Below, piece after piece: positions 5,494 through 43,182 of a stretch of 44,923 nt of DNA. Source of the DNA: a virus; the IMG/VR virus record IMGVR_UViG_3300042946_000505, positions 1-44,923 of that record; one strand, given 5' to 3'. Each line of letters opens with the position of its first letter. Within the stretch, counting starts at the first letter, position 1. Both the position numbers and the translations under genes were made by a program. The notes beneath the pieces were generated by a model. The model saw only the letters and a program-made list of their open reading frames with translations, was not told the origin of the DNA and searched no databases.

Positions 5494-6360
5494 CTAGTCG
5501 AGGGACGTCGGGGCGGTTCGCGGAGCCCCGATGATGTACGGATCAAGGTAGTGCCGTGCTGCAATCGCACTGCCCGGCGCGTGCCCTAGGTGAACGGCCC
5601 CTGCGCCGGGGCATCCCTTCTCGACGTCAGTTGCTGACGCACGCCGAATCCACTTCCAAGAGCCATTCCGCACGCCTGCCTTGGCGACGATCCGCTTGAA
5701 CTGGGAGCGGAAGGTTTCCGCCGACTTCGCCCACGGACAGATCATCTTGCGTGGGTGGGCCACTAGCGACTCGCGAAGCATCTCTACGGTGGCTGGCGTC
5801 AGCCTGCAGACGATGGCCCTGCCCGTCTTCGATTGCCCTAGAGCCATCACCCCGTCTGGCTGAACCTCGTCGCACCGCAGCCTGAGAATGTCCACAAGTC
5901 TCAGGCCTGTCTCCCAGGAGATCCGCACGGCGAGTGACCACCACACATTGCGAGGCACGTTGCCCTTGCGTGTCCGCTTAAGTTTGGAGGCCACTGCCAG
6001 TAACTGACGTACCTCCTCGACCGTCCACGCCCGTGGTGGCGTGTATGGCACTTTCGCGGGCCTGAGCCTGCGTGGTGGCTCCTGACACAGCCCCTTGTCT
6101 GCGGCTGCCCGCCACAGGGCCAGTAGGTGTCTCCTGCGGTTCGCAACCGTGTTCGGGGCCAGATGGCTCGACTGTATGTCTCGGAGCCAGCGGTTGAACA
6201 GGTCGGGTTCTAGTTCGTGAACCCCTACGGGCCGCTTGGCCCAATCGCTCACCGACTTGGCTGCGTACCGGTACTGACGAGCGGCCTCCTTCGTGAGCCC
6301 CCTCTCTAGGTCGTATGCCTCCACAAACTGAAAGACAGAACTGTCTGCTCGCCGGAACAT
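5494..6360 (-). CDS. int: Tyrosine recombinase / phage integrase
   Basis: 288 residues from the ATG at 6360, which has GGAGG eight bases upstream; an in-frame extension to 6420 lacks a ribosome binding site. The N-terminal core-binding domain spans about 1-100 (FVEAYDLERGLTKEAARQY). Catalytic candidates are Arg154 in ETGLRLVDIL, Lys178 in GQSKTGR, Arg240 in WIRRASAT (where the usual His is replaced), His260 in LGHAPGS and the nucleophile Tyr271 in ARHYLDPY. It would catalyse site-specific integration at the host tRNA-Arg site represented by the adjacent attP-like sequence. Confidence 0.93.
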   Translation of the reverse strand: MFRRADSSVFQFVEAYDLERGLTKEAARQYRYAAKSVSDWAKRPVGVHELEPDLFNRWLRDIQSSHLAPNTVANRRRHLLALWRAAADKGLCQEPPRRLRPAKVPYTPPRAWTVEEVRQLLAVASKLKRTRKGNVPRNVWWSLAVRISWETGLRLVDILRLRCDEVQPDGVMALGQSKTGRAIVCRLTPATVEMLRESLVAHPRKMICPWAKSAETFRSQFKRIVAKAGVRNGSWKWIRRASATDVEKGCPGAGAVHLGHAPGSAIAARHYLDPYIIGAPRTAPTSLD

Positions 6361-6727
6361 GGCACCATCCTCCGTCGCCCGCAAAGCGTGCTTGCTTTCG
6401 CGGCCTCGAGTGAAAGACAACGCAGCACATGCGTTGGTGTTTCACCCCACAACGGTGGCACTACCTTTTCTTCGATTGCGTAGATTCTCAATCGCTTAGA
6501 TGGGGGGTGCGCGCACCCACCATACGAGACTGCCGTTGCAATGCGGCAGACGCCCTGCGATCCTATTGGATACCTCGCGTAGAGCATCGGTCTACGGAAC
6601 CGAAGGTTACAGGTTCGAGCCCTGTGGGGTGTAGTTCGCTTCCTTGCGACTTCCATCGTAACGGTGGGAAACAAGGGGCGAAACCGCTTTCAAGCAGAAA
6701 GCGATCTACACAACCAAAGGGCAAAAC
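6361..6727. other. int-xre intergenic region with attP and inverted repeats
   Basis: A divergent 367-bp region without genes. It holds CGATTG/CAATCG inverted arms (about 6474-6498), a perfect GGGTGCGCGCACCC palindrome near 6506-6519 and the tRNA-Arg 3' half. These are suitable places for integrase arm sites and for the promoters of int and xre. I cannot define -35/-10 boxes with confidence. Confidence 0.6.
6579..6633 (+). other. attP: attP core: 3' half of tRNA-Arg(ACG)
   Basis: The sequence reads as a tRNA from the D-arm end (TAGAGC) onward. The anticodon stem is TCGGT (6587-6591)/ACCGA (6599-6603) with seven-base loop CTACGGA and anticodon ACG at 6594-6596. A five-base variable loop follows, then T-stem ACAGG (6609-6613)/CCTGT (6621-6625) with loop TTCGAGC, then GGGGTGT and A as acceptor strand and discriminator. 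The bases upstream do not pair with the acceptor strand, so this is not a working tRNA. Phages that integrate in tRNA genes carry exactly this 3' portion so that the host gene is restored. Confidence 0.85.
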
Positions 6728-6970
6728 ATGAACCGCAAGTCGCGTTCGTTCCCTACTGACCTTGAAGTCCGCAAACGGATTGCGGCCAACGTCACCAACC
6801 TCCTGGAGGTGCGTGGGCTTTCGCGACGCGACCTCGCCAAGAAGACAGGGGATGCCCCTGCCACCGTTGCTAGGGTGGCCCAAGGGAAGCACACAGCACA
6901 GGCAGGCGTGGTCGTGAGGGTTGCGGACGCCTTGGGCGTGACTGTGGACAGGCTCCTCGTCCCTAGGTAG
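6728..6970 (+). CDS. Small XRE/Cro-CI-family HTH DNA-binding protein
   Basis: 80 residues with AAAGGG ahead of the ATG. Residues about 18-75 form an HTH_3-type domain: ERGLSRRDLAKKTG-like first helices (here VRGLSRRDLAKKTGDAPATV), recognition helix region ATVARVAQGKHTAQ and the closing VADALGVTVDRLL. There is no C-terminal peptidase domain, so it would not be inactivated by RecA-stimulated self-cleavage as CI is. It is the best candidate repressor or Cro and the natural candidate to bind the TGTCTCA elements; that link is inference. Confidence 0.9.
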   Translation: MNRKSRSFPTDLEVRKRIAANVTNLLEVRGLSRRDLAKKTGDAPATVARVAQGKHTAQAGVVVRVADALGVTVDRLLVPR

Positions 6971-7183
6971 CGGCCACTTCCTGCCCGCCTATTATTTTGG
7001 TGCGATAGGGCGACGAGACTCCTGGGAGGCCCTAGGAGGCGAGAAGCGGAGGGAGGGTATGGTCATGCCACCCCATGCCCCAAACGCCCCTAGGATCGCA
7101 CGCCAGGGGCCTCCATGAGCGAGGCCCATCCACGCCCATAGTGGCAAAGTCTCCCAGGCAGAGAAGCGGCCATCTTGCCTTCT

Positions 7184-7202
7184 TGTTTTTGTGGGAGTGT
7201 GG
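7184..7202 (+). repeat. 19-bp dispersed repeat, copy A
   Basis: TGTTTTTGTGGGAGTGTGG, identical to 43183-43201. Both copies lie in the two longest gene-free stretches outside attP and in the same orientation. Confidence 0.75.
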
Positions 7203-7224
7203 CGCGTGCTTCCACGAGCATCCA

Positions 7225-7256
7225 CCAAGCATCCACCAAGCAATGCTCCAAGCATC
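7225..7256 (+). repeat. Iteron-like CCAAGCA repeats
   Basis: CCAAGCATC (7225), CCAAGCAATGC (7236) and CCAAGCATC (7248) are spaced 11-12 bp apart, about one helical turn. The same words occur on the minus strand within the DUF1376 gene (40389-40548); ATGCTCCAAGCAT (7243-7255) is exactly the complement of 40403-40415. Confidence 0.6.
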
Positions 7257-7438
7257 GACGCTGCCCGGCCCAAGTTCTAGGTTCGCGAATCCAGGACGCA
7301 GCCCGGCCCAGATTTCGTCACGACCGCTGAAAAGAAAGTCTTTCGTCCAAAGTGGGTGCTCGCTGGGGAGTCGCCGTGAAAATGAGCCAGGAAGGACCCA
7401 TGCAAGCGGCAGCATCGCAGCATCGCAGCGAGCGGACG

Positions 7439-8059
7439 CTACGCGCCTTCGCGAGCGTCGGTGTCCACCTTGTACATGTAATCATGCGGGCTAGATACGT
7501 CAGACTCGCAGTCCTCGGCCTGATAGACGTCTGTCTGCACCTTGTAGCCGGCGGCTCGAGGATTGGGAGACTTGCCTATGAAGTAGGCATCCATCCATGC
7601 GATGCGGTTGGTAGGCAATGCACACACGTTGCCGTCATCTAGTGCGATCACATGGGCGCACTTGTTCTGCTCTGGCATGAGGATGAGGCCGGTATCCTCG
7701 TTGGAGTTGGGCAGCCAATCCACAGTGAACAGGTACGTCCCTACCGCACTGCTACCACGCATGTAGCAGATGCACTGATGGTCGCGAAGGAAGCCGTAGA
7801 CATGCACTACAGGCTTGTTGGAGAAGCAGTCCCACAGTTGGCACTCACTGAGCGTCCGCGCATCAGTGTCGGGGTGCGTGGCAATGCCATGAATCGGAAC
7901 GCCCCTGTAGTGGGCACCGCTCTTCGTCATGCAGTGGAAGCCTAGAGCCCTGCCGCCAATGCTCTGGATGCCAAAGGCATAGGCTTCCTCAACCCCCTCC
8001 TTGCCGGAGAGAAATGGGAGCCTTACCCAGCAATGGAGCGTCGGTATGTCGGCGTTCAT
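7439..8059 (-). CDS. Conserved phage protein, unknown
   Basis: 206 residues, in an ATGA overlap with the upstream gene. Mostly beta by appearance, with repeated aromatic/Cys segments (HCWVRLPFLSG, CQLWDCFSNKPVVHVYG) and a C-terminal NRIAWMDAYFIGKSP. It is the last gene of the leftward accessory operon; a hairpin (GACGCT/AGCGTC) overlaps its final codons. The function is unknown. Confidence 0.75.
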   Translation of the reverse strand: MNADIPTLHCWVRLPFLSGKEGVEEAYAFGIQSIGGRALGFHCMTKSGAHYRGVPIHGIATHPDTDARTLSECQLWDCFSNKPVVHVYGFLRDHQCICYMRGSSAVGTYLFTVDWLPNSNEDTGLILMPEQNKCAHVIALDDGNVCALPTNRIAWMDAYFIGKSPNPRAAGYKVQTDVYQAEDCESDVSSPHDYMYKVDTDAREGA

Positions 8060-36475: not shown

Positions 36476-37729
36476 CTAAAAGAGGCCCGCGTCTTTCCGA
36501 GCCTTGTGATACGAATCGAACCAAACGTACTTCGGCCCCTTGGGCAGATTTGGCTCAAGCCACGTCCTGTTCTCGCCGCCGTAGATGATGATCTTTGCCG
36601 TCTTGATTCTTTCGCACCATTGGTGCATGCCACGGCAGAACAACTGCTTGCCCTTTTCATCATCCCTGTATGTCCTGCACTGCACCATTGCGCACGGCAC
36701 CTCTTTCGGGATGCCAATGAAAATCCATTCCCAACTCGCTTCGTCCGCGATGTTGATGTTTGGGATTATCTTGTGTCCAGCCTCCTGCCAGTACCGAGAG
36801 CACCACCTCGCTCGATAGGTGTTCCAGATATTGAATGCTGCTGGCTCGTCGGCCCAGGTCGAGAAGTCGGGCATCACTAGAGCGCCCGGCTTGATAACGC
36901 GCATCTTGTCGAGGAAGTTTGCGGACTTCTCCCAGATCGCGGACTCAAACCGATCATCGCTCGCGTAGAAGTTGATTACGTGGCCGGTCATTCGCTGATC
37001 GACGCCAACAGAACTCCAGCAGATCATCTGCGTCGGGGCTTCGTCGCCGTCCTTGATGTATATCTTGCGAATGTCGCCGTCCCACAACATGCTCGGTATC
37101 AGGTCTGGAAAGCCGAGCCAGTTGCTCGATGAAAAAATCGCGTCTTCGCGAAAGGTCGTGATCGAGTCCTGCTCGACGTTCGGCTCCTCTGGCTCCTCGT
37201 CATCCTCGATCTCTTCTTCGAGGTAGTTCTTGACCGGCTCGTCGCCTCGCACTGTTGGGGCTAGTTCTGGGGCCTGAGTCTCGGTCGCACTCGCCAGCGT
37301 TGGCCTGTCTGCCTCAAAGACCTTCTCGGCTAGCGGCGACAGCAGGGCATCCACCTCGTGCGTGTCGAATGCGAGGCCGCTGAAATCATTCCAGCCCATA
37401 TCGGACAGGGCCTTGAGTTCCGCCGAGAGCAGGCCAACGTCCCACTCTGCGATCTCGTTCGTTTTGTTGTCTGCGATTCGATACGCGGCGACCTTGTCTG
37501 CCGTCAGGTCTTTTGCCACCAGCACCGGCACCTTGTCTTCGCCTAGTTTGATGGCGGCAAGGTATCGCGTGTGACCAACGATGATGACCTTGTGTTGGTC
37601 AACGACTATCGGCTGACGCCATCCGAACTGACGAATGGATGCCGCGACGGCATCGACTGCCTTCTCGTTGCGTCGAGGGTTCTTGCCATACGGCGCGATC
37701 GCGTCGAGCGCGAGCATTTCCACTTTCAT
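36476..37729 (-). CDS. ParB/Srx-domain protein fused to DUF4417
   Basis: 417 residues. Residues 1-100 are a ParB N-terminal-like domain (APYGKNPRRNEKAVDAVAAS, RQPIVVDQHKVIIVGHTRYL with the GHTR motif, and IADNKTNEIAEW). An acidic linker (EEEIEDDEEPEEP, about 170-185) leads to a C-terminal DUF4417 domain (INFYASDDRFESAIWEKS, MPDFSTWADEPAAFNIWNTY, ARWCSRYWQEAGHKIIPNIN, IIIYGGENRTW). In many phages a ParB domain is instead fused to a DNA methylase. The joint function is unknown; DNA cleavage or modification is possible. Confidence 0.85.
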   Translation of the reverse strand: MKVEMLALDAIAPYGKNPRRNEKAVDAVAASIRQFGWRQPIVVDQHKVIIVGHTRYLAAIKLGEDKVPVLVAKDLTADKVAAYRIADNKTNEIAEWDVGLLSAELKALSDMGWNDFSGLAFDTHEVDALLSPLAEKVFEADRPTLASATETQAPELAPTVRGDEPVKNYLEEEIEDDEEPEEPNVEQDSITTFREDAIFSSSNWLGFPDLIPSMLWDGDIRKIYIKDGDEAPTQMICWSSVGVDQRMTGHVINFYASDDRFESAIWEKSANFLDKMRVIKPGALVMPDFSTWADEPAAFNIWNTYRARWCSRYWQEAGHKIIPNINIADEASWEWIFIGIPKEVPCAMVQCRTYRDDEKGKQLFCRGMHQWCERIKTAKIIIYGGENRTWLEPNLPKGPKYVWFDSYHKARKDAGLF

Positions 37730-40053: not shown

Positions 40054-40881
40054 TTAGAGTGTTGCCAGAACCTTCTTGCTTGGCGTGACCGGCTTCGGCG
40101 CGGTCATCGCATTTGCCAACCAACTACCTACGAACCTACGCATCCCCTTCGGCGTCTTACGCCTGCTGGGATTGTCTACAAGCCACTGCCGGGCTCGCCT
40201 CAACTGTGCATGGACGTCGAGGTCTGGATACGTCGCCTTCCACTCTGCGACCATCTCGCGTGTCGGTATCCAGTTGCCCTTGTCGCACGGGAACGAAGGA
40301 AGCGGCACCTTCTCGAAGGAAGAAGAAGGTAGTGTTTCTTCTTTCTTATTTGATGGAGATGGAGATGGAGATGGAGGGCATTGCTCAAGCATTGCTTGGC
40401 GCATGCTTGGAGCATCGCGAGAAGCGGTTTTCTCGACGTTTCCTTGTGGGGCCTTGGTGCGACCGCTTCCAGCCTGGGAGGCCTCCCCATGCTCACGCAT
40501 GGACTCATGGGATGCTCTAGCATTGCTTGGGGCATTGCTTGGAGCATCCTTGCCCCATCGGGCTTGGGCCGCTTTCAGTGCCTTGTCGGCGCGGGCCTGC
40601 TTGAGATCGCTGGCCTTGCGGCGATGCTCCTCTAGCCTCCGATTACGCCTCAGGCCGTCTTCCCAGATGGGGAACTTGGCCTCCAGCCTTCCCCACGATC
40701 CTGAGCATCCCTGCGAAACCAGTTCAAGCCGCTCGATCTCGCTAGGGATATGGCCCTGCTCCCATTGGGTAATGAGCAGCACCACATAGTGGCCGCGTTC
40801 CTCCGCAGTCCACCCCATCGTTGCTGTGAGGAAGTCTCTGCCAAAGAGCGGGATGTACGAATCCACGTTCTGTCTCGTCAT
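40054..40881 (-). CDS. DUF1376-type phage replication initiator
   Basis: 275 residues from the ATG at 40881, with GGAGAA upstream; the extended frame to 40923 crosses element 10. The N-terminal DUF1376 domain is clear: DSYIPLFGRDFLTATMGWTA and EERGHYVVLLITQWEQGHIP. A low-complexity middle (PSNAPSNAR and a PSPSPSPS tract from a 6-bp DNA repeat) links to a C-terminal domain with REMVAEWKATYPDLDVHAQL typical of initiators. The linker DNA carries four GCAT(T)GCTTGG repeats. In lambda-like phages the origin lies inside the initiator gene. Confidence 0.82.
   Translation of the reverse strand: MTRQNVDSYIPLFGRDFLTATMGWTAEERGHYVVLLITQWEQGHIPSEIERLELVSQGCSGSWGRLEAKFPIWEDGLRRNRRLEEHRRKASDLKQARADKALKAAQARWGKDAPSNAPSNARASHESMREHGEASQAGSGRTKAPQGNVEKTASRDAPSMRQAMLEQCPPSPSPSPSNKKEETLPSSSFEKVPLPSFPCDKGNWIPTREMVAEWKATYPDLDVHAQLRRARQWLVDNPSRRKTPKGMRRFVGSWLANAMTAPKPVTPSKKVLATL
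40352..40377 (+). repeat. (GGAGAT)n hexanucleotide repeat
   Basis: About four copies of GGAGAT in tandem on the plus strand, coding for alternating Pro-Ser on the minus strand in the DUF1376 linker. Such a microsatellite can change length without shifting frame. Confidence 0.8.
40389..40548 (-). repeat. Iteron-like repeats inside the initiator gene
   Basis: On the plus strand GCATTGCTTGG (40389), GCATGCTTGG (40401), GCATTGCTTGG (40520) and GCATTGCTTGGAGCATC (40532) form two pairs, members of each 12 bp apart. On the coding strand they read CCAAGCAATGC. The same words occur in the gene-free region at 7225-7256. Confidence 0.6.
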
Positions 40882-40919
40882 GCGCTGTTCTCCTTGCGCG
40901 ACCTTGCCGATGCGGGGCC

Positions 40920-40933
40920 TCATATTTGAGACA
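40920..40933 (-). promoter_or_regulatory. TGTCTCA operator-like element 10
   Basis: Minus strand TGTCTCAAATATGA, followed by GGCC. It lies in the 75-bp gap between the RecT gene and the DUF1376 gene, 39 bases before the latter's start. Confidence 0.65.
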
Positions 40934-41769: not shown

Positions 41770-42659
41770 TTCTTTACGCTCCTTGTGAATCGCCGCGAGT
41801 AAGCCGTTCTGGCCTCCTGCGACTTGTAGTGAACTTCGGACCCCTTCCACGAATACTTCACGCCTTGGGGGGTCAAACCGCCGGCGTGTGTTCCGATCCA
41901 CAACTTCAACTGACTCTCGATCTGCTCACGGCGTTCCGCGAGTTCATCGAGCCTGCTTCGCACCTCCTGCAACTCTGCGTCGAGATCATCTGCCTCTGGA
42001 GAGAGAGCGGTGACGTCTTCGATCTCGACCTTGGGGAACAACGCCTTCACCGTTTCCGCACTGTGCGGCCCGGCTGGCGGTGCTGTCTCTGTTTCGACCT
42101 TGTGCCAGAAGTCTCGCTCGATCTCGATGATGCGAGCCGCAATCTCTGGCGTCAGGTCACGCTCATAAGCCCTAAGGTTCTGGCCGCGATGCAACGCGAC
42201 GAGAACGCCACGGGTTGCCCCGGCGACGATCATTTCGTGCTGCAACTGAACCTCGTAGTGGACAGGCAGTTGCTCGGCCCATACATCGGCGTGGTATGAG
42301 GTGTTCTTGATTTGAACCACCACAAGCTCGCCGTCACGATCTTCCGTCGCGTCCAGTGTGGCACACATGAAGTGATGCTCTGGATGGCGACGAATGACGA
42401 ACGGTTCCGCGAGAGTGACGTTCCGCTTGAACTTGCGGCCGTACCACTCGCCAATCGTTCGCTCTAACACGATCCCTGCCTCTACGGCCTCGTTGTCAGA
42501 GAGGTCATCACCCTCCAACAGGCCCACCTTCTGCGACCAGACCGTCAGGGCATCTCGCCACGGATCTACTCCGCACACTGCCGGTGCATCGCTTCCGCCG
42601 ATACCCTTCTTTCGCTCTTCCAGCCACGCTGCCCGCTTGGCCGCATCAACGATGCTCAT
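41766..42659 (-). CDS. YqaJ-family exonuclease (viral recombinase)
   Basis: 297 residues with AAGGAG before the ATG. ERKKGIGGSDAPAVCGVDPW is the conserved opening. The catalytic core of the PD-(D/E)XK type includes MCATLDATEDRDGELVVVQI with KNTS and HYEVQLQHEMIVAG. A coiled coil (DDLDAELQEVRSRLDELAER) precedes the C-terminus. With RecT it makes a two-component recombination system like lambda exo/bet. Confidence 0.92.
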   Translation of the reverse strand: MSIVDAAKRAAWLEERKKGIGGSDAPAVCGVDPWRDALTVWSQKVGLLEGDDLSDNEAVEAGIVLERTIGEWYGRKFKRNVTLAEPFVIRRHPEHHFMCATLDATEDRDGELVVVQIKNTSYHADVWAEQLPVHYEVQLQHEMIVAGATRGVLVALHRGQNLRAYERDLTPEIAARIIEIERDFWHKVETETAPPAGPHSAETVKALFPKVEIEDVTALSPEADDLDAELQEVRSRLDELAERREQIESQLKLWIGTHAGGLTPQGVKYSWKGSEVHYKSQEARTAYSRRFTRSVKK

Positions 42660-42864
42660 CGCTGCTCCTTACTTGGTTGGTGTTATCCCGCCGGTAATCC
42701 CTCGCCGTGAGGTCATCCAGCAACTCCTCGCGGAAGACATCGAATCCGTGCGGGGCCTCAAACCCCAACTTCACTCGATTGCCGTCGATCCGCGTGACGG
42801 TCACTCTGATCAGGGCTCGCGGTATAACGACCGCTTCACCCTCCTTGCGCGTCAGCACAAGCAT
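42646..42864 (-). CDS. csrA: CsrA-family RNA-binding regulator
   Basis: 72 residues from the ATG at 42864, with AAAGGAG upstream; longer in-frame extensions have no such site. MLVLTRKEGEAVVIP at the N-terminus, VTRIDGNRVKLGFEAP in the middle and VFREEL at the end match CsrA closely. CsrA dimers bind GGA in hairpin loops or at ribosome binding sites. It is the first gene of the leftward recombination operon, so it could regulate phage or host mRNAs early. Confidence 0.93.
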   Translation of the reverse strand: MLVLTRKEGEAVVIPRALIRVTVTRIDGNRVKLGFEAPHGFDVFREELLDDLTARDYRRDNTNQVRSSDEHR

Positions 42865-42999
42865 GGGAACTCCTTTCCTTGGGTAACGGCCAGCGTCAGT
42901 CCATCGACGCTCGACCTCGACTCCTAAACATGCCCACATCCTTCGCGGGCTCCTTTCCCACTCCATCCATCGAGTGGGCATCCTTGATGGGGAAGCGTA

Positions 43000-43013
43000 T
43001 CGAATGTGAGACG
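43000..43013 (-). promoter_or_regulatory. TGTCTCA-type element 11
   Basis: Minus strand CGTCTCACATTCGA, one mismatch in each half, upstream of csrA in the divergent region. Confidence 0.5.
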
Positions 43014-43041
43014 ATTGGTCTACGAGCCTAAACCGCTTCTC

Positions 43042-43055
43042 TGTCTCGCTTGTGA
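43042..43055 (+). promoter_or_regulatory. TGTCTCA-type element 12
   Basis: TGTCTCGCTTGTGA, one mismatch in the left half, 28 bases from element 11 and pointing to the plus-strand genes. Confidence 0.5.
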
Positions 43056-43182
43056 TTTCGCGTCGATTGCGTGGCAGGATGGGAAGCGGCCTGTTTGACG
43101 CATGCACCACAGGCCCCACCAGGGCACGCCCCCCCCATGGGGGAGGCCACAGAATACCCCTCTTTGTGGGGTGTTTTGGGGG

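Follow-up and report, generated by a model that had tools for sequence, protein, structure and literature searches.

Why should the same short repeat words lie both in a gene-free region of a phage genome and inside the coding sequence of its replication initiator? Some lactococcal phages have intragenic origins with short repeats. In the window analyzed here, a viral DNA of 44,923 nucleotides (IMG/VR record IMGVR_UViG_3300042946_000505), an earlier note had suggested that two clusters of such words could be either a split origin or an origin plus a control (handcuffing) site.

One repeat word at two places in a phage genome

The record ends carry a 127-bp terminal repeat, so the window represents a complete phage genome, whose circular map has 44,796 bp. 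Its genes include those for terminase, portal, head, and tape-measure proteins, and its early operon combines a RecE-like nuclease and RecT with a DUF1376-like replication initiator gene (40054–40923, minus strand). The early operon also encodes a CsrA-like RNA-binding regulator (42646–43119; Pfam CsrA E=1.2e-16), and a ParB N-terminal domain is fused to DUF4417 in one protein (36476–37729). Next to the integrase gene (5494–6420) lies the 3' part of a tRNA-Arg(acg)-like gene (6580–6638), probably the attP core; a full tRNA-Arg that it matches is present in locus L014 (4406–4480).

The word CCAAGCA occurs on the plus strand at 7225, 7236, and 7248, with spacings of 11 and 12 bp, and on the minus strand at 40536 and 40524 (12 bp apart) and at 40404 and 40393 (11 bp apart). 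Pairs of the form CCAAGCA-N3-6-CCAAGCA number four in the window, whereas 100 dinucleotide-preserving shuffles give an expectation of 0.00; two lie in 7225–7254 (plus strand), one in each of two sub-arrays in the initiator gene's linker (40393–40410 and 40524–40542, minus strand), and none elsewhere in the window. These counts confirm the 11–12 bp phasing that the earlier note described for both regions, at the positions it gave. The 13-base word that it found in common, ATGCTCCAAGCAT, is indeed exact at 7243–7255 (plus strand) and 40403–40415 (minus strand), and a search of the window for ATGCTCCAAGCAW with at most one mismatch returned copies otherwise in the linker only. The linker copies are inverted relative to the window, as had been claimed, but this orientation carries little weight because the iteron word is nearly palindromic, with the core AGCAWTGC.

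Phased arrays in the linker of the initiator gene

The initiator gene has a longest ORF of 289 residues, and the ATG at 40881 yields the 275-residue protein named in the earlier note. The AlphaFold model consists of an N-terminal domain, a disordered linker, and a C-terminal domain, with confident residues at about 11–110 and 190–260. The protein matches the PHROG 'primosomal protein' (E=1.5e-9), and in a viral structure library its fold and domain layout match those of DUF1376 phage proteins (E down to 1.9e-8). However, it misses the Pfam DUF1376 (PF07120) cut-off, at 18.2 bits against a gathering threshold of 30.1 (relatives reach up to 28.0), so the earlier assignment as a DUF1376 initiator rests on fold and we call the gene DUF1376-like. 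A fold search of the PDB returned weak, non-significant matches, some of them to winged-helix domains, and no prophage with the initiator profile was confirmed in bacterial genomes.

Both sub-arrays map to the disordered linker between the two confident domains. Sub-array 1 (ATGCTCCAAGCAATGCCCCAAGCAA; 40523–40547, minus strand) has a 12-bp period, and sub-array 2 (ATGCTCCAAGCATGCGCCAAGCAATGCTTGAGCA; 40382–40415, minus strand) has an 11-bp period with an inverted copy at its end; this ending (QAMLxxC) recurs in many relatives. Directly after the iterons lies a hexamer tract, (CTCCAT)n (40352–40376, minus strand), with no other exact copy in the window. It falls within a putative DNA unwinding element (40310–40376), which is among the genome's two least stable 60-bp stretches.

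We compared this arrangement in two sets of relatives: 80 loci of a close group, gathered by protein similarity alone, and 80 loci of the classical DUF1376 group, for which the query alignment came from word-bearing loci and was therefore not fully word-blind. A phased 11–12-bp array, defined as one whose score is reached by no more than 5 of 100 codon shuffles, is present in 57 of the 66 close-group genes scored, nearly always in the linker, and 52 of the 66 beat synonymous shuffles as well. The best period upstream of the hexamer tract reaches a score of at least 12 in 58 genes, among which 32 have a period of 11 and 26 a period of 12; no other value came up in a scan from 7 to 20. As a control, 472 other ORFs of the same contigs yielded 59 repeats, 46 of them with periods that are multiples of three, and a period of 11 was seen only once. 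Classical DUF1376 genes show a period of 11 or 12 in 49 of 66 distinct genes and the window's word type in 43 of 66, the query having been built from word-bearing loci. One locus (L073) encodes an 11-residue repeat that is a single 11-bp word read in three frames.

The iteron words are clade-specific (AGCAAACG, ATGCGAnnGCAT, ATCGCAAA, CCAAGCAATGCT). Free variation among related phages, which the earlier note held against its own reading, is thus seen in the words, which differ between clades, but not in phasing and position, which are constant. The iteron arrangement is common in DUF1376 phages, not universal; several cultured members, including Rac ydaU, have no clear array. Some classical DUF1376 phages carry an extra inverted iteron copy about 170–180 bp upstream of the linker array (L124 near 6680 and L160 near 602), apparently within the coding sequence of the N-terminal domain.

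In relatives, a median of 11.5 bp separates the array from the hexamer tract on its downstream side, which is built of (CTCCAT)n, (GTCAAC)n, (CCAACA)n, or (TCCATG)n, depending on the clade; the motif changes across clades while the six-base period and the place near the array stay. On the 3' side of the array the DNA melts unusually easily, with a median rank of 1.7% of the locus across 58 loci, compared with 36% on the 5' side and 21% for random positions; the associated p-value of 3e-24 overstates the evidence, as the loci are related. In the window and in relatives alike, easily melted DNA lies directly beside the iterons, on one side only.

It could be argued that selection on the linker repeats concerns the flexible peptide of low complexity that they encode and not the DNA, the distal copies being a coincidence or a relic. 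Both the hexamer tract and the arrays with a 12-bp period are in frame, with simple peptides as their translation, and only 37 of 67 hexamer tracts beat synonymous shuffles. However, 32 of the 58 arrays have an out-of-frame best period of 11 bp, which other ORFs hardly ever show, and 52 genes score above their synonymous shuffles. The distal copies, moreover, lie in non-coding DNA, and none would be expected there by chance, so that we regard this explanation as very improbable. Since an 11-bp out-of-frame period cannot arise from a short peptide repeat, the constraint is on the DNA and its helical phase; as judged from these sequence comparisons, selection on the linker arrays acts at the DNA level.

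The proposal that lambda-type iterons lie inside the initiator's own gene is supported in about 100 relatives by helical phasing, out-of-frame selection at the DNA level, a one-sided melting element, and a disordered linker. It is highly probable that the linker of the initiator gene is the replication origin, in the style of lambda.

The distal cluster and its possible roles

The distal cluster (7220–7256, plus strand), made up of the three CCAAGCA words with their 11- and 12-bp spacings, is located between transcription units, in a region (6971–7438) kept as non-coding DNA in relatives. Two opposite-strand ORFs overlap this region; they have no recognizable products, and a coding ORF at 7.2 kb was rejected in view of the conservation as non-coding DNA. 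The description of the region as gene-free therefore stands, in that it contains no credible gene. Beside the cluster is a conserved non-coding block (7320–7403), 83.5% identical to positions 2604–2687 of a related phage, G001, and also aligned in a second one, G007; its core pattern occurs in no other IMG/VR contig. Further blocks that the window shares with G001 and G007, including CCTAGG-rich stretches, lie within 6971–7438. We found no relatives of the gene at 7439–8059.

A counterpart of the distal cluster is present in G001 (2768–2792), at the corresponding place near the conserved block and in the opposite orientation. A 19-bp double word, exact at 7236 (plus strand), recurs there at 2773 with one mismatch; among 29 word-bearing records, the only further matches at a distance from the gene, in G011 and G018, differ at three positions, and a reversed control gave none. 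That the cluster is kept in place but flipped fits maintenance of a binding site rather than copying. A period-first search for second clusters in 58 relatives placed the window's cluster at the top of 338 candidates; the swapped control was uninformative, as related phages share words. The distal cluster lies 11.6 kb from the linker in the window, compared with 10.6 kb in G001. We rejected an origin of the cluster as a duplicated fragment of the initiator gene, no similarity being seen beyond the words. G007, whose iteron word differs, has the non-coding block, but its own word forms no cluster there; members of the group can therefore do without the distal site, and a distal site covarying with the linker word was accordingly rejected for G007. 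The region is covered by only three phages, and the cluster is known in two of them, the window and G001. The link drawn between the two clusters is thus supported in part, by a word shared beyond chance and kept in G001, but not by G007.

Based on the shared words, the distal cluster is likely to be bound by the same protein as the linker, and the question becomes what such binding would do. A second origin that operates conditionally, such as in the prophage or at a late stage, or one half of a split origin, would account for the same word and phasing and for the conserved gene-free setting. However, the linker carries both a hexamer tract and a melting element, and alone has the complete set, whereas the window's distal cluster has no hexamer tract and neither it nor that of G001 has an unusual melting stretch; moreover, the cluster is absent in G007. 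The distal site also lies at the maximum, not the minimum, of cumulative GC skew. The skew has no break at 40.3 kb, which counts against the linker as origin; both observations are confounded by gene direction. The split origin of the earlier note is not supported by this distribution of elements, and we consider a second or split origin improbable. An operator, at which the initiator would repress or activate a promoter or small RNA with no involvement of replication control, would suit a conserved, non-coding region between transcription units. Against it, we found no sigma-70-like promoter or terminator in 6400–7600, although the host's promoters may differ, and no known RNA or Rfam family in the gene-free region; this role is unlikely.

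With neither a hexamer tract nor a melting element in the distal cluster, we consider a control site more probable there than a second or split origin. Control by handcuffing or titration is also the better of the two readings that the earlier note offered, although the absence of the cluster in G007 weighs against it. Whether the distal cluster serves control, rather than an origin or a promoter, stands about evenly balanced in our assessment, and the reading as a whole, an origin in the linker and a distal control site made of the same words, is the one we favor on balance. The following steps, from binding of the protein through unwinding and helicase loading to control, are inferred. The initiator would bind the 11–12-bp phased iterons on one face of the helix, probably via its N-terminal domain, and the hexamer tract and the easily melted stretch on one side would then open for helicase loading. 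At 7220–7256 the initiator probably binds but would be unable to open the DNA, so that the distal cluster would titrate the initiator or, with rising copy number, be paired with the origin by the bound protein.

More tentatively, DUF1376-type initiators may mark a widespread, unrecognized class of origins with out-of-frame 11–12-bp iterons, a hexanucleotide tract, and a one-sided melting element within the coding linker, some lineages having a distal cluster that limits re-initiation. Belonging to this same speculative reading is the possibility that the hexanucleotide tract, at its near-fixed distance, is read single-stranded by the initiator or the helicase loader. DUF1376-type genes are common in phages, and in one open-access full-text library we found them mentioned in passing only, with no description of DUF1376 origins. 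If the hypothesis is correct, such origins would be readable from sequence and the family would gain a function. The coding region would be under two codes, peptide and iteron, amenable to synonymous recoding, and the distal cluster would exemplify in a phage the off-origin initiator control that is usually discussed for plasmids and chromosomes.

Comparison with known origins and control sites

In lambda and Stx phages, ori-lambda lies in gene O: its iterons occupy the central part of this initiator gene, and a melting tract follows them on one side (PMC7466680). The window shares iterons inside the initiator gene and melting DNA on one side, but differs in its DUF1376-like fold, shorter iterons at 11–12 bp, hexamer-repeat tract, and distal cluster. 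The initiator was not found to belong to the lambda O family; it matches DUF1376-type and 'primosomal' phage families, so that the window would work like ori-lambda without its initiator being a lambda O member. For the hexamer tract, the closest parallel is plasmid Rep binding, in which TrfA binds single-stranded repeats of the unwinding element at oriV, which has 13-mers (PMC4081077). Both systems have a repeated element beside the iterons at the melting region, whereas the repeats here are 6 bp, less AT-rich, and within a coding linker, and their single-stranded reading is putative.

The distal cluster, which has the origin's words off-origin and no unwinding element, fits the layout expected for titration or handcuffing. 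On Vibrio cholerae chromosome 2, off-origin RctB sites (a datA-like titration locus and ori2-inc) bind the initiator and restrain initiation (PMC6090056). The likeness lies in extra initiator words away from the origin, with binding predicted in our case; here, however, there are only three words, in a phage, and they are missing in one close relative. Phage lambda is arrested by ectopic ori copies, so extra initiator-binding DNA can block initiation (PMC4488673), but those copies were artificial and carried on a plasmid, whereas the extra sites described here are native to the phage genome.
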